In this document: piece by piece, positions 1,821 through 24,361 of the stretch
How positions within the stretch are numbered: position 1 is the first letter of the stretch
Layout of the letters: each line of letters begins with the position of its first letter
NCBI GenBank assembly: GCA_015065215.1
Contig: SVQT01000012.1
Span: forward strand, 1 to 44,589
Direction: 5' to 3'
DNA: 44,589 nt
From: Oscillospiraceae bacterium
GTDB taxonomy: Bacteria > Bacillota > Clostridia > Oscillospirales > CAG-272
Made by a program: the position numbers and the translations under genes
The notes under the pieces: model-generated
The model's database searches: none
What the model saw: the letters and a program-made list of their open reading frames with translations, nothing else
Told to the model about the DNA's origin: nothing

Positions 1821-2007
1821 ATAGTCTCCTTTCACATTCCCTTGCGGAAATGGATCTTTCTTTTCATTCCTTTGAGGATCACACGTTCACCGTTCAACGG
1901 TAAGCTCTGCGAAATATTTGCGCAAACGGTTTCTTCGCCGGCTTATCGCTGATCCTATGAAAAATCGTGTCAGGTTAATGGCGCCCACCAAGCGCAAGCG
2001 CTTCTCA

Positions 2008-2029
2008 TGAGATTTGCATGCAAATCTCA
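2008..2029. repeat. 22-bp perfect palindrome in the glgD-glgA interval
   Basis: The left arm is TGAGATTTGCA and the right arm is its exact reverse complement, centred on GCATGC. A second small inverted repeat, AAGCGC-AA-GCGCTT, lies just before it at 1990-2003. There is no T-tract, so it is not an ordinary terminator. It could be an operator, an mRNA-processing hairpin inside the glg operon, or the edge of a dispersed repeat. The sequence after it (about 2030-2105) shares short blocks with the tandem repeats upstream of rimP. Confidence 0.7.
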
Positions 2030-2115
2030 CCGCAAGAAAGCAAGGCGAAGGCATAGTAAACCTACGTCGAGCCGCTTTCGAGGAGCAACGACACATGACG
2101 CGATTTTTCGACGGA

Positions 2116-3249
2116 TCAAACAGTCATGCCTTTGCCGATGTAGAACGGCAGCGTCTCATGCCCGCACAGCTCACGGTCGTCCTTGATAACAACATTCTTG
2201 TCGGTGATCACGCAACCAAGCTTCACATTCTCACCGGTATAGGTATCCTGCATCAGGATCGAATTCCTGATCACAGTGCCCTTGCCCACATGTACGCCAC
2301 GGAAAAGGATAGAATTCTCTACCGTTCCCTCGATCACGCAACCGTCAGCAATCAAGGAGTTTTTGACCTTGGCATCGGGCAGATAGCGCGTGGGGGCCGA
2401 ATTGCGCACCTTGGTGAAAATGGGCTGATTGCGACGGTAGAAGAGGTTGACGCGGGATTTGCGATCAAGCAAACGCATCGAACAACGGAAGTAGCTCTCG
2501 ATCGAGTTGACACGAGCAAAAAATCCGTCATAACGGGCGACAAAGAAGCGATCGCGGCCCAAATTGCGATATATTACATCGCGATGGAAGCTGGTATAGC
2601 CGCGAGAAATGGCATCGGCAACCACACGCTGAAGATAGGTGCGGCGCACGATCATAATATCCGAGCAGATCTCAACCCTGCCCTGCTGACCTTCATAAGC
2701 GCCGATGTCGATCAGGCGATTGTTCTCATCAAAGGTCGGGACCTGCACCTTGCGATCCAGATCCTGCTCATCGGTATCGACAGTAGCGGTGATCAACGTC
2801 ACATCAGCATTGTTCTTTCTATGCTGCTCCATCGCCACTGCCAGATCCACGTTGCAAATCACATCGCAATCAGACAGCACCAATGCTTCCTCGGTGCAAC
2901 GGTCCACAAAATTCATCACACCCATCAGGGCCTCCAAACGGGTGGTATAGACCTTGTTCGCCACAGCATTGTCATAAGCGGTGATAAAGGGAGGCAGGAT
3001 TTTGATACCGCCGTTGCGACGGGCCAGATCCCAGTCTTTACCGTTGCCGACATGGTCCAGCAAGGATTGATAATTATCGTGGGTGATAAGCCCCACCTTG
3101 GTGATGCCCGAATTCACCATATTGGAAAGCGCAAAGTCAATCAAGCGGTAACGGCCGGCAAAAGGGATACTGCCCATGGTGCGGCGCGTGGTCAATTCAG
3201 GGATGGATGCATCGTGAATGTTAGAAAAAATAATTCCAGCTGCTCTCAT
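2116..3249 (-). CDS. glgD: Glucose-1-phosphate adenylyltransferase subunit GlgD
   Basis: Non-catalytic or regulatory partner of GlgC in Firmicutes ADP-glucose pyrophosphorylase; 377 residues. The N-terminus (GIIFSNIHDASIPELTTRR) keeps the nucleotidyltransferase fold (RYRLIDFALSNMVNSGI) but lacks the GGxGxRL nucleotide loop seen in its neighbour GlgC. The C-terminus has left-handed beta-helix hexapeptide-like repeats. A start at ATG 3249 is supported by AAGGAGG, and the glgC stop lies only 12 bp upstream, so the two are probably translated together. Assignment to GlgD rather than a second GlgC rests on the missing catalytic loop and the family-typical start. Confidence 0.95.
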   Translation of the reverse strand: MRAAGIIFSNIHDASIPELTTRRTMGSIPFAGRYRLIDFALSNMVNSGITKVGLITHDNYQSLLDHVGNGKDWDLARRNGGIKILPPFITAYDNAVANKVYTTRLEALMGVMNFVDRCTEEALVLSDCDVICNVDLAVAMEQHRKNNADVTLITATVDTDEQDLDRKVQVPTFDENNRLIDIGAYEGQQGRVEICSDIMIVRRTYLQRVVADAISRGYTSFHRDVIYRNLGRDRFFVARYDGFFARVNSIESYFRCSMRLLDRKSRVNLFYRRNQPIFTKVRNSAPTRYLPDAKVKNSLIADGCVIEGTVENSILFRGVHVGKGTVIRNSILMQDTYTGENVKLGCVITDKNVVIKDDRELCGHETLPFYIGKGMTV

Positions 3250-17290: not shown

Positions 17291-20188
17291 TTATTGCTTG
17301 ATCTCCTCCATCACGAAGGCTTCCAGAATGTCGCCCACCTTAATGTCGTTAAAGCGATCCAAAGCGATACCGCACTCGTAGCCCTCGGCCACCTCCTTCA
17401 CGTCATCCTTGAAGCGACGCAGAGAACCGATCTTATCCTCAAAGATCACAACGCCATCACGAACCACACGGATCTGCGAGGCGCGCGTGATCTTACCGTC
17501 CTGCACATAGGAACCGGCGATAAAGCCAACATTGGGCACATGAATGGTCTGGCGCACCTCGGCGTGGCCCATGAGAACCTCGGTAAACTTGGGTGCCAGC
17601 ATACCCTTCATAGCGGCGGTGACTTCCTCGATGCATTCATAAATGACGCGGTAGGTGCGGATATCCACACCCTGACGGTCAGCGGAGTCAATAGCGGCCT
17701 TATCAGGGCGCACATTAAAGCCCACGATGATGGCATTGGAGGCGGCAGCCAGCATAACGTCACCCTCGATGATACCGCCGGCAGCGGCGTGAATGACGCG
17801 CACCTTAACCTCTTCATTCGAAATCTTTTCCAGTGACTGCTTCACGGCCTCGGCAGAGCCGACCACGTCAGCCTTGACGATGATGTTCAGCTCCTTGACG
17901 CCGTCAGAAATCTGCGCAAACAAATCGTTGAGGTTGGCACGGGCGTTGGCCTTGAAGCCCTCCTCCTTTGCCTTGTCACGGCGCTGATCGGCCAGAGTTC
18001 TGGCCATACGCTCATCCTCAACGGCGGCAAAGTCGTCACCTGCCTCGGGTACCTCGGCAAGACCGATGATCTCAACAGGAACAGAGGGACCTGCCACCTT
18101 AACGGTACGCCCGGTGTGATCCTTCATGCTACGGACGCGGCCAACAGCTGTGCCAGCAATGATGATGTCGCCGGTATGAAGTGTGCCATTTTGCACCAGC
18201 ACGGTAGCAACAGGGCCGCAGCCTTTATCCAAACGAGATTCGATGACGATACCCTTGGCACGGCGATCGGGGTTGGCTTTCAGCTCTTTCATATCTGCCA
18301 CGAGAATGACATTCTCCAACAGGTCATCAATACCCATACCGGTCAGTGCGGAAACCGGCACACAGATCACATCGCCGCCCCACTCCTCGGGTACCAAACT
18401 GTAGTTGGTCAACGCCTGCTTTACGGCATCGGGATTGGCAGTAGGCTTATCCATTTTGTTGATGGCAACGATAATGTCGATACCGGCAGCCTTGGCATGG
18501 TTGATCGCCTCCACCGTCTGGGGCATGATGCCATCATCCGCAGCAACCACCAGGATAGCAATATCGGTGGATTGCGCGCCGCGGGCGCGCATCGAGGTAA
18601 AGGCCTCGTGACCGGGGGTGTCCAGGAAGGTAATGTCTCTGCCACCGGCCTTGACACGGTAAGCGCCGATGTGCTGTGTGATACCGCCGGCCTCGCCCGC
18701 CGTCACATGGGTATGACGAATGGCATCCAGCAAAGAGGTCTTACCGTGGTCAACGTGACCCATGACACAAACCACAGGCGCGCGCTCGACCAAATTTTCT
18801 TCCGCATCCTCGGTCTCGTCAAAGAGTTTTTCCTCAATACTGACCACCACCTCTTTGGTGGCCTCTACGCCCAGCTCGGTCGCAATCAGGAACGCGGTAT
18901 CAAAATCAATGGTTTGGTTGAGGGTAACCATCATCCCCATCATCATCAATTGCTTCACCACCTGAGCGGGGGCAATTTTCATGCGAGAAGCAAATTCGCT
19001 AACCGTAATCTCCTCGGGCAGCACCACAGAATTCGCTTGCTTGGTGACCGGCGCGGAGGACTTTTTGCTTCCCTTTTTGCCCGCGGTCATGGCGTGGGTG
19101 CCAACCTGCTGCTTTTTAAAGCGTTGATTGCCACCACGGGCATCACGAACCGCGTCAGGCACAAAGGTATCCAAACGCTCATCATATTTGGAAAGGTCCA
19201 CGCTAGAGCCGCGCATATCCACCACACGGGTGCCGCGCGCCTTCTGGCTGTTGTCGGTACCCTTGGGGGTCTGCCCACGCACAATCGCTTGCACCTGAAA
19301 ATGCTCACGGGGCGCGCGTCCGCCCTCATCCTTGTCTTTAAAGCCGCCATTCGCACCGCGGTTACGGTCATTTTGAGTGGGACGGGGCTGCTGATCACGA
19401 CCGCCAAAGCCGGGCTTGCTTGCGCCAAAGCCGGGGTTGGCAAAACGGTCGTTATGAAAACGGTTATCAGCAGATTTCCCCCCCTGCGCAGGGGCATTGG
19501 TGCCGGGACGGGGTGCGAAACGGCTATCCCCGGCAGTTTTCTCTGCTGTGCGCTGGCTGTTGCCGGCAGGCGCCGCGGGACGCTGGTTCATGGTAGCACG
19601 CAGATTTTGCGGAATGTTATAGGTGCGGGGGTTGGGCTTGGCAGGCGGTACCGCTGCCGGAGCAACCTTTTCTACCACAGGGACGGAGGCGGTCTCTGTA
19701 GAAGCAGTCTTTTGAGCAGTTTCCGTCTTCGGTGCGGACTTCACCTCGGGTTCTGCTATCTTTTCTTCTTTGTGTTTGGCGGGCACAGCCTCAGCACTTG
19801 CCTTTTTATTCTCGGCTTTGGGCGCCTTCTTTTCAGGCTCTGCCTTGACCTCAGGCATTTTGGGTGCAGTCTCCTTGACAGGTGCCGTTTCAGCAACTGC
19901 CTTGCCCTCTTCTTTCTTTTCCGCCGCAACCGCTTCAACGGGGGCGACAGCTGCCTGCTCTTTCTTAGCGGGCGCCTTTGTGGGAATATAGGTGTCGCCA
20001 AAGAGATAGTCGTCAATATTCTTGACCTGCTTCCCCCTGGTCAAAACCTCAAAAATGACATTGAATTCTGTGGGAGTCAGAGTTTTTTGCGTGGTCTTGC
20101 ACTCCATGCCACGGGCTGTCATCAGCTCGGTAATATCCTTACTTTTGATGCCGAGATCCTTTGCCAGTTGTGTAATCTTAAACGCCAT
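17291..20188 (-). CDS. infB: Translation initiation factor IF-2
   Basis: GTPase that places initiator tRNA on the 30S subunit. At 965 residues it is longer than Bacillus IF-2, because residues about 65-350 form an Ala/Lys/Pro/Glu- then Gly/Asn/Arg-rich linker. The N-terminal domain starts [19 protein letters not shown]. The G1 motif GHVDHGKT is at 477-484, followed by [20 protein letters not shown] and NKMDKP. Domains III-IV end in [11 protein letters not shown] start 45 bp upstream is in frame, but GGAGGA supports the ATG at 20188. It follows ylxQ by 88 bp. rbfA, usual next gene, is replaced by a NUDIX gene. Confidence 0.97.
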
Positions 20189-20276
20189 GTTTCCTCCTGT
20201 TTTGCTTCGGTTGTCCGTACCGAAGGCTTTCAAAGTGTAAGTTTACTTTCTCATTTCGCAACGAATGTGATTTTCT

Positions 20277-20612
20277 TTACTTTAATAAGGTGATCATCGC
20301 CCGGGCTAAATCGGGCTCGCTGACCCCGACCGCCGCCACGGCGCCATCCCGCTTACCGACGGTCAACGCCAGTCTGGCACAATTTGCCGTAATGCGATAT
20401 AGGGGCACTTGATAATATGCGGTGCGGTCAGTGATCCGTTTTTTGGTATTTTCAGAAGCATCTGCCGCAAGCAACACCAAAAGCGGTGTTTTTCCGGCAA
20501 TACCCTTTTGCAGGGCGGCGCAAATGAGGGGAACGCCCACGGTTGCTCTGCCCGCCTTCGCGGCAAGACCCAGCATCCGCAATGCCTTTTCTTCCCGATC
20601 ATTCACCTGCAT
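20277..20612 (-). CDS. ylxQ: L7Ae/L30e-family RNA-binding protein YlxQ
   Basis: Ribosomal-protein-L7Ae-like K-turn binder of 111 residues, whose role in the nusA-infB operon is not well defined. The visible family core is LRMLGLAAKAGRATVGVPLI, then PLLVLLAADASENTKKRI and AVAAVGVSEPDLARAMITLL. The ATG at 20612 has GGAGGA about 8 bases upstream and lies 14 bp inside the end of ylxR, so the two are translationally coupled. Confidence 0.92.
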   Translation of the reverse strand: MQVNDREEKALRMLGLAAKAGRATVGVPLICAALQKGIAGKTPLLVLLAADASENTKKRITDRTAYYQVPLYRITANCARLALTVGKRDGAVAAVGVSEPDLARAMITLLK

Positions 20613-20874
20613 GGAACTGCTCCTCCAAAGCCGTATACACGTCATCCGGGATCTCACATGCCAAATTCCGTGAAAGACTGCGCTTGCGCCGTGCCAGCTT
20701 CAGGCACGCCAGCTTCTTACAAATATATGCGCCCCTACCGGATTTCTTTCCGGTAAAGTCCAGCGAGACCTGCCCTTCCGGGTCCCTCACCACACGCAAC
20801 AGCTCGATCTTGGGGCGGTGTTCGCCACAGCCGAGACATTGGCGTTCGGGGATCTTCTTTTTTTTCTGTTCCAT
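20599..20874 (-). CDS. ylxR: YlxR/RnpM family RNA-binding protein (DUF448)
   Basis: A 91-residue basic protein; in Bacillus the homologue RnpM binds the RNase P RNA. The N-terminal signature is RQCLGCGEHRPKIELLRVVRD, followed by GRGAYICKKLACLKLARRKRSL, both typical of the family. It lies between nusA and ylxQ as in other Firmicutes. The ribosome site is weak (AGGAAAAA), with nusA about 26 bp upstream, so expression is probably tied to nusA translation. Confidence 0.93.
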   Translation of the reverse strand: MEQKKKKIPERQCLGCGEHRPKIELLRVVRDPEGQVSLDFTGKKSGRGAYICKKLACLKLARRKRSLSRNLACEIPDDVYTALEEQFHAGE

Positions 20875-20900: not shown

Positions 20901-21941
20901 TTATTCCGCTTTGATGTCAATCTTGCAACCGGTCAAACGGGCAGCAAGACGGGCGTTCAGGCCCTCGCGGCCAATGGCAAGAGAGAGCTGATCGGGATCA
21001 ACCAGCACACGGCAGGAGCGGTCGCCTGTCATCTCTACCGAAATGACGCGCGCAGGGGAAAGAGCGGCCGCAATGAACTGTTCGGGTTCCTCGCTATAGT
21101 TGATAATATCAATTTTCTCTCCACGAAGCTCGTTCACAATGCCGGCAATACGCATGCCGCGATTACCGATACAAGCGCCAACCGGATCCACATCGGTATC
21201 GCGAGAAAAGACAGCGACCTTGCTACGCACACCCGCCTCACGGGAAACGCCCTTGATCATGACAATACCGTCAGCGATCTCAGGAACCTCCAATTCAAAC
21301 AGTCTGCGCACCAGACCCGCATGGGTACGGGACAAGGTAACCAGGGGGCCCCTTGCCTCCTTGTTCACTTCCATGACAAACACCTTGACACGGTCGCCAA
21401 CCACAAACGATTCGCCGGGAATCTGCTCGTCCTTGAGCAATACGGCACGGCCAGTCTCGGTTTCCAGCACAACGTTACCGTTCACAGGATCGATCTTGCT
21501 AACGGTAGCGGTAATGATCTCATCACGCTGGCTTTCATATTTATCTTGCATCACCTTACGCTCGCCCTCACGGATGCTTTGAATGATCACCGATTTGGCA
21601 GCGGCCGCGGACAAACGGCGGAAGTTTTCCGGCTTGACCTTGATCTCCACCAGCTGCCCCAATTTGAAGCGCTTGTTGTGGGATCTGGCCTCCTCTAAGG
21701 TGATTTCCTGCTCGGGGTCAACCACGGTTTCCACCACCGTCATTTGTTGATATACACGAATATCGTCTTTTTCCAGATTGAACTCGATGCGCACATTTGC
21801 CCCCGCGCCGTACTCTTTGTGGTACGCGGAGACCAGCGCGTTTTCGATCCGCTCGATCATGTACTCTTTCGGAATCCCCTTCTCTTTCTCAAGAAGCTCC
21901 AGAGCGTTTACAAACGATTCCTTACTGCTTTTGGTTGCCAT
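20901..21941 (-). CDS. nusA: Transcription termination/antitermination factor NusA
   Basis: RNA polymerase elongation factor that modulates pausing, termination and antitermination. The 346 residues contain an N-terminal RNAP-binding domain (SKESFVNALELLEKEKGIPKEYM), an S1 domain (EIITATVSKIDPVNGNVVLE), and two KH domains (VDPVGACIGNRGMRIAGIVNEL and LSLAIGREGLNARLAARL). It has no C-terminal acidic repeats, normal for Gram-positives. ATG 21941 is preceded by AAAGGAT, 44 bp after the rimP stop. Confidence 0.97.
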   Translation of the reverse strand: MATKSSKESFVNALELLEKEKGIPKEYMIERIENALVSAYHKEYGAGANVRIEFNLEKDDIRVYQQMTVVETVVDPEQEITLEEARSHNKRFKLGQLVEIKVKPENFRRLSAAAAKSVIIQSIREGERKVMQDKYESQRDEIITATVSKIDPVNGNVVLETETGRAVLLKDEQIPGESFVVGDRVKVFVMEVNKEARGPLVTLSRTHAGLVRRLFELEVPEIADGIVMIKGVSREAGVRSKVAVFSRDTDVDPVGACIGNRGMRIAGIVNELRGEKIDIINYSEEPEQFIAAALSPARVISVEMTGDRSCRVLVDPDQLSLAIGREGLNARLAARLTGCKIDIKAE

Positions 21942-21985: not shown

Positions 21986-22453
21986 TCAAAACGTGAAAAC
22001 GGTGCGCATTTTTGCGATTGCACAGCGGGGCAGAGCACGCACCTCGCCACCCAGCTCCAGCAAGAGCTCCTCGTTGCCATTTCTGCCGGCAAGAATACCC
22101 TCTAAGCTCTTTTTCCCCTCAAACGGGGCGAAAAAACGCACCTCTACCAATTCCCCAACGCAAGCGTCAATATGCGCATCGGTACGGAGTTCCCGTTCAA
22201 TACCGGGGGAACTGACCTCTAAATCGTAAGCGGTATCAATGGGGTCGATTTCATCCAGCACAGGATCGATCGCACGGTGCATCCGCTCACAATCCTCAAT
22301 GGTAATGCCGTCTTCGTGATCGATGGTCACGCGCAGGATCCTGCGGGCGCCCTCCTTAACAAATTCCACATCCCAGATGGAAAGTCCCAGCTCGTCAGCC
22401 ACGGGTTGGATCCCCTGCCACACGGTCTCGGCTATATTCTTCGCGCCTGCCAT
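21986..22453 (-). CDS. rimP: Ribosome maturation factor RimP
   Basis: Assists 30S subunit maturation. 155 residues from the ATG at 22453, which has AAAGGAG 7-8 bases upstream; a longer in-frame start at 22528 runs into the repeats and is rejected. Family features are the N-terminal domain (WQGIQPVADELGLSIWDVEFVKEG), EDCERMHRAIDPVLDEID and YDLEVSSPGIERELRT. It is the first gene of the nusA-infB operon and has a long upstream leader with three tandem repeats. Confidence 0.96.
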   Translation of the reverse strand: MAGAKNIAETVWQGIQPVADELGLSIWDVEFVKEGARRILRVTIDHEDGITIEDCERMHRAIDPVLDEIDPIDTAYDLEVSSPGIERELRTDAHIDACVGELVEVRFFAPFEGKKSLEGILAGRNGNEELLLELGGEVRALPRCAIAKMRTVFTF

Positions 22454-22497
22454 CTTTTTCTCCTTTCGGTGTAATGGAAAAGTGTACTTCGCTGCCC

Positions 22498-22869
22498 GGA
22501 ATTGCTGTGAGAGAAACAAGAAAAGCAAAGCGCGTCGAATGCTGACAGGCGATGGCGAACTTGTTGTTCGTCGAGGTTGTCAGTGTGGAGCAATACAGCT
22601 TTTCGCTATTTCTGGTTGCCGGGAATTGCCGCGAAAGAAACAAGAAAAGCAAGGCGCACCGGAAGCTGACAGGCGATGGCGAACTTGGTGTTCGTCGAGG
22701 TTGTCAGTGTGGAGCAATACAGCTTTTCGCTATTTCTGGTTGCCGGGAATTGCCGCGAAAGAAACAAGAAAAGCAAGGCGCACCGGAAGCTGACAGGCGA
22801 TGGCGAACTTGTTGTTCGTCGAGGTTGTCAGCGTGGAGCAACACAGCTTTTCGCCGTTTGTTTCGTGGC
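22498..22869. repeat. Three tandem 124-bp repeats, each with an imperfect hairpin
   Basis: Copies start at GGAATT 22498, 22622 and 22746. Copies 2 and 3 differ at only a few positions until near the end; copy 1 differs mostly in its first 50 bp. Each copy carries a 42-nt imperfect hairpin bounded by CTGACA and TGTCAG (22542-22583, 22666-22707, 22790-22831) with an inner CGAAC-loop-GTTCG stem. The one change seen in that inner hairpin (TTGTT versus TTGGT) is in the loop, which suggests the structure matters. There are no unique spacers, so this is not CRISPR. Confidence 0.93.
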
Positions 22870-22877
22870 AAGAAAGA

Positions 22878-22903
22878 GGAGCAGGCTTTGTTTCGCCTGC
22901 TCC
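22878..22903 (-). promoter_or_regulatory. Terminator-like hairpin near the start of the rimP leader
   Basis: A 9-bp GC-rich stem, GGAGCAGGC (22878-22886) with 22895-22903 and an 8-nt loop, followed on the minus strand by TCTTTCTT. It falls about 20 nt after the predicted transcript start, a position that fits an attenuator. The U-tract is interrupted, so termination would be partial at best. Confidence 0.5.
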
Positions 22904-22926
22904 ACACTTTTCACTATACTGGGCGT

Positions 22927-22955
22927 ATTATACCACAACTTTTGCCCTTTTGCAA
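22927..22955 (-). promoter_or_regulatory. Sigma-A promoter of the rimP-nusA-infB operon
   Basis: On the minus strand: -35 TTGCAA (22955-22950), 17-bp spacer, -10 TATAAT (22932-22927). No better promoter is seen between the repeats and rimP. Confidence 0.8.
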
Positions 22956-23046
22956 TAGGAAAATACATTTTTTTTGAAAAAACTGATTTTTTTTGAATTT
23001 TGCCATTATTTTGCGTGCAAATTTCACAAATCCTTCAATAAATGTG

Positions 23047-23075
23047 TTTACAATCATCAAATTGTATGTTATAAT
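23047..23075 (+). promoter_or_regulatory. Sigma-A promoter of yybS-gdpP-rplI-dnaB
   Basis: -35 TTTACA (23047-23052), 17-bp spacer, -10 TATAAT (23070-23075), about 60 nt before the ribosome site. Confidence 0.87.
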
Positions 23076-23143
23076 ATTAAATTAGTATAATAGACAAAAT
23101 ATCCGCGTATATGTGATAAGATCCCGTGCCAAAGGAGTTTTAC

Positions 23144-24361
23144 ATGGAACAAATAAAAAAACAATTGCCTGCACATAGCGAATGGAAGGCCATGCTACAT
23201 GCGCCTACCGTTGGTCAGGCAGTGCTGGTTGCCGCGCTGTTCTTTCTTTCCTGCCTCATACTGCCTATCACCGATCATGCCGTGGTCGCCCAGCTTTACA
23301 CGGTGCTATGTGCCGTCTTCTGCTATCTATTGCTACGGAGCTTTCGCGGCTTACTCCTCTATGCCCTCCCCGCGTTTGTACTTTATATGCTCAGCGGTAT
23401 CGTCCCCAGCATCCAGTCCCCCATTACGCTGACCGCCGCTTTTCTGACCATTTTGGTCGGTGGCAGTTGCGGCGGATTTTTCTTGACCCACTATCACAGC
23501 CCGCGCAAGTATCCCTTTATACTCCTGCTGCCACCGTCAGCCTACGGCATTGCCACCTGGGTCACCGGCGATCCGTTGCGAGGCCTTCTGACCCTGATCC
23601 CGTTGGCGGTTGCCATTGTGACGGCGATCTGTCTGCTTCGTCTGATCGAGCGCCCAACCGCCACCGCGCTGATCGCGGGAACGCTGGCCGCAACGCTGGC
23701 CATTGCCGGTCTGATCACCCTTGCCGCCATTGGCGCTTTGCATGGCAACCCCGTCGTTGCCATGGGTGATCATCTGCGCTCCGGTATCCTCGATCGGTTT
23801 TGGCAAATACAGGCCATGTATGAGGAGTTGCAGCCGCTTTACGCCGAAATGGGCGTTGATCTTGCCCTACCTGAGATCGACTATCAAGCTGTTGCCGATA
23901 TGCTGGTCAATATTTTTCCCGGCATCTTTCTTGCTCTGTGCGCTGTTACCGGCTTTTTCGTTTGGCGACTGCTTGTACAGCAGCTGGTCGCTTTCCAATC
24001 CACAAATCGCTTACCGTTTCAGCTGGTCGCCTTTACGGTCAGTCGTGTCGGCGCTCTCCTCTTTGTTTTTTGCGGTCTGGTGGCGATCTTCGCAAGCGAG
24101 CTGACCGCGTTTTCCGCCATCTGCTTGAATCTTGCCATCGTAACAGCCCCCGGTCTTGCGCTAATCGGCTTTACCTCTCTGTTTACCCGCGGGCGGTCCT
24201 GCCTCTCACTCTTGCTTGCCATCGGATTGTTATTCCTGGTCTTCCGCAACCCGATCAGCGGTCTGATGGTCGCCGCCTTTCTCGGCGCTTTTCAGATTCT
24301 TTTCATCCGTTTTGTCCCCTCCCCCGATGACCCTGACAATCACGACAAAGGAGAAAATTAA
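23144..24361 (+). CDS. YybS-like (DUF2232) polytopic membrane protein
   Basis: A 405-residue integral membrane protein with roughly eight hydrophobic segments (for example VLVAALFFLSCLILPI, LYTVLCAVFCYLLL, LTAAFLTILVGGSCGGFFL). The ORF can start at 23126, but AAAGGAG precedes the ATG at 23144. Its stop and the next gene's start overlap as TAATG, so it is translationally coupled to gdpP. The position (yybS-gdpP-rplI-dnaB) matches the Bacillus arrangement. The function of this family is not established; a link to cyclic-di-AMP or membrane homeostasis is inference from the neighbour. Confidence 0.85.
   Translation: MEQIKKQLPAHSEWKAMLHAPTVGQAVLVAALFFLSCLILPITDHAVVAQLYTVLCAVFCYLLLRSFRGLLLYALPAFVLYMLSGIVPSIQSPITLTAAFLTILVGGSCGGFFLTHYHSPRKYPFILLLPPSAYGIATWVTGDPLRGLLTLIPLAVAIVTAICLLRLIERPTATALIAGTLAATLAIAGLITLAAIGALHGNPVVAMGDHLRSGILDRFWQIQAMYEELQPLYAEMGVDLALPEIDYQAVADMLVNIFPGIFLALCAVTGFFVWRLLVQQLVAFQSTNRLPFQLVAFTVSRVGALLFVFCGLVAIFASELTAFSAICLNLAIVTAPGLALIGFTSLFTRGRSCLSLLLAIGLLFLVFRNPISGLMVAAFLGAFQILFIRFVPSPDDPDNHDKGEN

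Follow-up and report, generated by a model that had tools for sequence, protein, structure and literature searches.

The window (the whole stretch of 44,589 nt that was analysed, contig SVQT01000012.1 of an Oscillospiraceae bacterium) carries a rimP-nusA-infB operon on the minus strand. A promoter, a terminator-like hairpin and three tandem repeats lie ahead of rimP, and a further copy of the repeat element is found elsewhere in the window. The features, in the order of transcription, are as follows:

22927–22955, minus strand: promoter TTGCAA-17-TATAAT, sigma-70-type, of the rimP-nusA-infB operon (pattern scan, 10 of 12)
22878–22903, minus strand: putative rimP-leader-like attenuator hairpin GGAGCAGGC..GCCTGCTCC, with a T-rich tail on to about 22868
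22741–22864, minus strand: element copy 1, first in the transcript (R1 covariance model match 22750–22866, 119.7 bits)
22617–22740, minus strand: element copy 2 (R1 match 22626–22742, 106.9 bits)
22493–22616, minus strand: element copy 3 (R1 match 22502–22618, 89.9 bits), with the GGTGCGCC box altered
21986–22453, minus strand: rimP, the operon's first gene (Pfam RimP_N)
20901–21941, minus strand: nusA, downstream of rimP (Pfam NusA_N)
20277–20657, minus strand: L7Ae-type gene, downstream of nusA (Pfam Ribosomal_L7Ae)
17291–20233, minus strand: infB, downstream of the L7Ae-type gene (Pfam IF-2)
2002–2113, minus strand: further element copy (R1, 48.6 bits), 2 nt past the stop of ORF 2116–3249 (minus), refound in region L175

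An earlier sequence-only reading had placed the promoter, the terminator-like hairpin and three 124-nt units ahead of rimP, and its coordinates were correct; the leader to the rimP start (22453) was about 467 nt, taking the transcript start about 7 nt past the −10 box. With the unit at 22493–22616 as the reference, the direct repeats at 22617–22740 and 22741–22864 showed 92% and 86% identity, and the three units were the sole tandem array reported within the window. In a simple scan, TTGCAA-17-TATAAT (22955–22927) was the only minus-strand promoter match in 22400–23150; a second match lay on the plus strand at 23047–23075, and none was located at 22454–22500. Upstream of rimP, the simple scan yielded two promoters and one terminator compared to shuffle means of 0.9 and 1.1, so the scan by itself is little proof. 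A promoter-like pair (9–11 of 12) was present 5′ of rimP in every one of the loci L033–L049.

A conserved hairpin in the rimP leader

The hairpin at 22903–22878 has nine pairs and the tail TCTTTCTTGC, and it lies with its T-stretch between the promoter and the rimP start, as does the rimP-leader attenuator. Naville and Gautheret (2010; PMC2965389) call rimP-leader more ubiquitous than any other transcription attenuator and suggest NusA as its factor. For Streptococcus agalactiae, a termination event 31 nt past the operon start has been reported, along with a proposal of NusA feedback (PMC4448216).

The rimP loci compared were the best 80 of 128 relatives. At 74 of the 80 loci, the 500 nt upstream of rimP held a hairpin of GAGYRG type and, behind it, five or more T in twelve bases, compared to a mean of 0.6 of 80 and a maximum of 2 in shuffled upstream sequence (20 rounds); the search demanded pairing, and the pairing itself is therefore no independent evidence. 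Among the 74 hairpin-bearing relatives, the commonest stems were GAGTGG..CCACTC (45) and GAGCAG..CTGCTC (13), and several of the former extended as GGGC..GCCC. The window stem GGAGCAGGC..GCCTGCTCC was set beside the published conserved GGGc..gCCC of rimP-leader. The published attenuator (PMC2965389) and the hairpin at 22903–22878 share a G-rich 5′ arm, a C-rich 3′ arm, a following T-stretch and the place in a rimP-nusA-infB leader, whereas the stem in the genus of the window is GGAGCAGG..CCTGCTCC and the motif, as published, comes without the repeats. The rimP family was absent from the Rfam matches in 22400–23050 at E up to 5.

The data suggest that the conserved part of the leader is this small hairpin, which resembles the known rimP-leader attenuator in place and form and would be a variant of it, a weak terminator hairpin. 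A leader that senses termination, as the sequence-only reading had proposed, is plausible for the hairpin at 22903–22878, given its frequency among the relatives and its match to the published attenuator; the same role for the repeats found no support.

Structure and dispersal of the repeat element

Each repeat had been described as a 42-nt hairpin with a conserved stem and a variable loop. The hairpin is real and the tips do vary among copies, but it forms the tip of a fold covering most of the unit. The three units folded at −38.7, −34.1 and −30.3 kcal/mol (z −1.96, −2.55 and −2.17), and the complete leader at −153.4 kcal/mol (z −6.17). RNAalifold was run on an alignment of 37 copies (A1) and predicted 19 pairs, 13 of which had at least one double-sided change; the compensatory changes that the sequence-only reading had named as a check on the repeats do occur. 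Over the 37 copies, 96.0% of the cells in the 19 consensus pairs were paired, compared to 80.7% in shuffled alignments (0 of 500) and at most 49.6% with the partners slid.

In transcript sense, an A-rich left arm is followed by a stem with the box GTTGCTCC at its end and by a second stem, of which whole types differ. A small apical stem comes next, with inner pairs that swap (UA/AU, CG/GC), and then the sequence GGTGCGCCTTG and the T-rich right arm. Box GTTGCTCC lies opposite box GGTGCGCC, with unpaired bases that are conserved. Nearly all aligned copies retain a U.G pair, a T.T mismatch and a bulged T. G.U cells outnumbered A.C cells (217 vs 40), mostly in one U.G column (120) of an alignment fitted to the model; outside that column, an alignment by sequence only gave 11 vs 8, and the excess was not relied upon. 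The right end was T-rich in 117 of 136 copies (70 of 597 random 20-mers from the same loci), and the left end was A-rich in 84 of 136 (57 of 597). As read by eye, many right-arm T-tracts were broken by C or G, and the three rimP copies were not called by the simple terminator scan. The element is a single long imperfect hairpin of about 110 nt with a tip varying between copies.

R1 detected 25 copies in the own genome of the window (G000) and 221 in the 21 genomes of the genus, counts that may be lower bounds since at most 150 candidates were scored per genome. At least one match at E 0.01 was present in 20 of the 21 genomes, including G011 with just one (E 0.0085). In the order, under stricter filters, weak matches of at most 34.3 bits were located in 6 of 116 other genomes (117 drawn, including the own genome). 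With the array as BLAST query, two more places were located in the own genome; 13 of the 20 other genomes of the genus had matches, and the 18 genomes outside it had none. Of the R1 matches in the own genome, 22 of 25 lay away from rimP. The fallback of the sequence-only reading, a dispersed element that landed here, is supported; calling it passive may understate copies that are structured, covarying and mostly at gene 3′ ends.

None of 4227 Rfam families matched in the window at gathering score, and a known Rfam family was rejected as the identity of the repeats; at E up to 5 (22400–23050), one lncRNA match only was returned, far below its gathering score. A literature search limited to open-access papers did not find a description of these elements. 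The C-terminus encoded by ORF 2116–3249, which precedes the further copy in the window, resembles those of the genes preceding the element in regions L201 and L223. Three contig ends of genome G009 (L009, L020 and L026) fall within 141-nt tandem element copies, and arrays may thus exceed the assembled length.

At rimP itself, the element was located upstream in 3 of the 80 relatives, with three model matches in L034 and one each in L036 and L037; the model did not find it in the other 77 loci, including the nearest relative, L033. On a tree of 22 rimP-nusA sequences, its presence needs at least three changes, and its clustering was not beyond that of shuffles (109/500). The rimP site of L033 has a short coreless hairpin with an A-tract, a T-tract and GCCC..GGGC arms (by eye), possibly a deletion remnant. 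These data bear on the proposal that the three repeats are a rimP-specific sensor, riboswitch-like or NusA-responsive, controlling the operon. The repeats do separate rimP from the one minus-strand promoter located, their fold is strong, and there are proposals of NusA feedback for the operon of other bacteria (PMC2965389, PMC4448216). Against this stand the own-genome copies elsewhere, the few rimP loci that carry the element, the repeated changes on the tree and an array that differs among carriers. The sequence-only reading had held that dispersal at unrelated sites, together with a lack of conservation upstream of rimP, would speak against a sensing leader made of repeats; this is largely what was found, and we rejected the rimP-specific sensor as very improbable. 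A small regulatory effect on rimP in the carrier species is conceivable.

Gene ends and locus-specific outer arms

Sites were fetched from 99 regions in 19 genomes and held 136 copies at 101 sites; they comprised all 25 G000 matches and a selection from the other genomes, and lean to better-scoring copies. There were 72 single, 24 double, four triple and one quadruple sites. Counting open frames of at least 90 codons, 78 of the 101 sites had a co-directional stop codon no more than 12 nt from the element start, compared to four on the antisense side, and 14 more had one 13–80 nt upstream of the element. The stop and its two preceding bases read AATAA at 14 of the 78 sites. The gene ends bearing the element in several genomes belong to what we take, from C-terminal peptides, to be purC-, mutL-, yebC- and argF-like genes. 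Several of the 13–80-nt sites follow an ordinary terminator (by eye), as after what are presumably an rpsT-like gene and in the rpmH-rnpA interval (names from peptides). Tandem copies after an ordinary terminator and before a presumed rnpA-like gene were present in both G000 and G001 (L161 and L220), with differing copy numbers. The rimP leader, with the element coming after the attenuator, fits the 13–80-nt class.

At these sites, a T-rich tract comes after the stem, oriented with the upstream gene, as in an intrinsic terminator. Ordinary intrinsic terminators, such as those after purC in G013, G012, G009 and G015, likewise have an A-tract, a stem and a T-tract in the same place, whereas the element is about 110 nt long with an elaborate conserved core common to unrelated genes. 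As read by eye past purC, a second terminator-like hairpin seems to follow some gene-end copies, and the element therefore need not be the sole terminator.

The outermost arms vary by site and partly complement the last codons of the gene that the element follows. At 71 single-copy sites, own arms paired at a mean of −29.7 kcal/mol compared to −22.3 kcal/mol for foreign arms (0/10000 permutations). Strictly outside the model, complementarity was not significant over 25 nt (2579/10000) and marginal over 40 nt (103/10000); the signal sits in the outermost model positions and the first flanking bases. A perfect complementary run of at least 7 between the last 15 coding bases plus stop and the own right arm was present at 15 of 61 single-copy sites, compared to 2.8% of foreign pairs (0/10000 permutations reached the own mean), and the other 46 sites had no perfect run of 7.

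Orthologous sites with and without the element were compared at purC and mutL, and the complementary arm was absent at 17 of the 18 tested element-free orthologues. For both genes, the controls were base-shuffled sequences scanned in coarser steps than the real one; this somewhat favours the z-scores of the latter. At purC, 13 of 20 matches were tested: six element-bearing loci paired (z −2.7 to −5.5) and seven element-free loci did not (z −0.8 to 0.9). Excluded were L267, L268 and L272 (motif not found), L273 and L275 (wrong frame) and L278 and L279 (36% identity); L268 (G004) was left out although a model match adjoins it. At mutL, the arm was present at four of nine element-bearing sites (z −4.7 or lower), G019, G009, G013, G000 and G001 being the carriers without it, and at one of 11 element-free sites (G015, z −2.6); carriers G009 and G001 were marked by eye, the rest came from the listed element matches, and the mutL of G007 was excluded (wrong frame). 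The mutL site of G001 holds a seemingly internally deleted element copy. After mutL in G015 (L281) there is a differing stretch with an open frame, which we take to be of DUF559 type from its look; the near relative G020 has the element there.

The synonymous purC codons TTTTTCGCG and TTCTTCGCC each have a fitting right arm opposite them, perfect in G008 and G000 and mismatched in G005, G007 and G001. Tip types differed at this same purC site among genomes with similar outer arms (L260–L265), which suggests that tips are exchanged between dispersed copies. As a source of the arms, which are about 4–8 bp (by eye) and often include the stop codon, insertion into a pre-existing terminator loop was disfavoured; the lack of pairing at the element-free sites also disfavours it. 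Such an insertion, or an internal deletion, is kept in play by the coreless hairpin of L033. Template switching, selection or inverted copying at insertion could each have produced arms matching a gene end.

Function and origin of the element

The repeats are a variant of the dispersed palindromic elements and, like REP elements, are extragenic palindromes dispersed in many copies. ERIC, REP/PU-BIME, NEMIS, Rickettsia palindromic elements, BOX and RUP are likewise described in PMC2267715 as many copies of about 40–170 nt, mostly intergenic and many predicted to fold, with ERIC given as one long stem-loop. The present element differs from these families in its mostly fixed orientation and its start at the stop codon. 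It also differs in outermost arms that often complement the 3′ end of the host gene and in a tip that changes between orthologous copies. We know of no listed family with fixed orientation, a stop-codon start, gene-complementary arms and varying tips. Integron attC sites were set aside, as the end boxes that we presume for them were not visible in the element.

The reading that we hold to be probable is that the element is a gene-end, terminator-like palindromic repeat that entered the rimP leader behind the attenuator, and that it would act as an intrinsic terminator and 3′-end stabiliser. The data show the dispersal, orientation, position and covariation of the element, its site-specific outer arms, and where it is present or absent among relatives. 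From the T-rich right arm, the orientation and the place, we infer intrinsic termination and 3′-end protection; mRNA protection, mobility and any rimP effect likewise stay at the level of prediction. The element is a dispersed palindrome of mainly one genus of gut Clostridia and sits mostly at the very gene end in the direction of the gene, at or overlapping the stop codon or right behind an ordinary terminator. We propose that it came into the rimP leader through the attenuator's resemblance to a gene end. The leader would then consist of two unrelated layers, the attenuator next to the start site and three tandem element copies behind it. These copies would add three terminator-like hairpins, which might lower basal expression. 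The presence of the element at rimP has changed repeatedly, and the attenuator was retained throughout.

Another reading, possible but on the doubtful side, is a parasitic palindrome of the REP/MITE kind whose hairpin would be mobilised in single-stranded form by a transposase; the conserved bulge and mismatch would be marks of protein recognition and the gene ends safe sites. Its dispersed, tandem-prone copies, the conserved unpaired bases in an otherwise covarying stem and the presence or absence at orthologous purC and mutL sites are consistent with this. The Y1 transposase PF01797 was not found in G000, G004, G007 or G017, which have 22–26 copies each, an absence made uncertain by assemblies about 85–97% complete; among copy-rich genomes, only G001 (25 copies) has it. 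In the genus, PF01797 was present in 10 of 21 genomes (0–25 copies) and absent from 11 (1–26 copies), with no positive relation to copy number, and a RAYT/REP system was rejected on this distribution. No mobilising enzyme was found, PF01797 being the one transposase family searched. Phage and plasmid records gave zero element matches, and 15 stretches of viral contigs with a pattern match gave zero model matches, which also counts against a parasite; carriage by phages or plasmids was rejected.

Neutral palindrome growth, in which template switching during replication extends and repairs the arms, would make covariation and arms products of mutation and not of function. Right arms do resemble inverted copies of the local coding end, and template switching is able to build hairpin stems and to repair them (PMC8794818). 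Repair alone should erase the T.T mismatch, bulged T and boxes, which stay imperfect in nearly all aligned copies, and the fixed position at stop codons is left unexplained; we consider this reading rather unlikely. Quite unlikely, though compatible with the data, is a mobile gene-end cassette that settles at gene 3′ ends, may (to judge by the 14 AATAA sites) supply the stop codon itself and brings a terminator, gains, on arrival, a right arm as an inverted copy of the last codons of the host gene, and has its tip swapped as a module. The target would thus be duplicated in inverted form, whereas ordinary transposons make direct duplications.

If the favoured reading of a gene-end terminator holds, a gut genus known here from metagenome assemblies alone would end several genes, including purC- and mutL-like ones, with one folded element whose pairing can reach into the coding sequence. 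Three questions would become testable: how a repeat comes by complementary arms that fit its locus, whether these repeats act as transcription terminators, and how the leader of an essential operon is altered by repeats while the attenuator stays. The case would also show that an old attenuator and unrelated passengers can together make up a long structured leader.

The element family may be wider than the model reaches. Genome G039, from another family of the order, has three tandem units of about 121 nt after a yebC-like gene (L156, 1497–1859), a divergent relative of the element, and relatives of this type gave seven matches on two contigs (L316–L322). In L153 (G024), such an element contains the end of an open frame, GAA CAA TAG, and has the arms AAATTGG..CCAATTT. 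The outer stem of the element reads CTGCGTT..GCCTTG, and divergent relatives seem to be present in other families. L155 and L159 (G081) carry another kind of repeated hairpin element, which shares a longer flank and may be a MITE.
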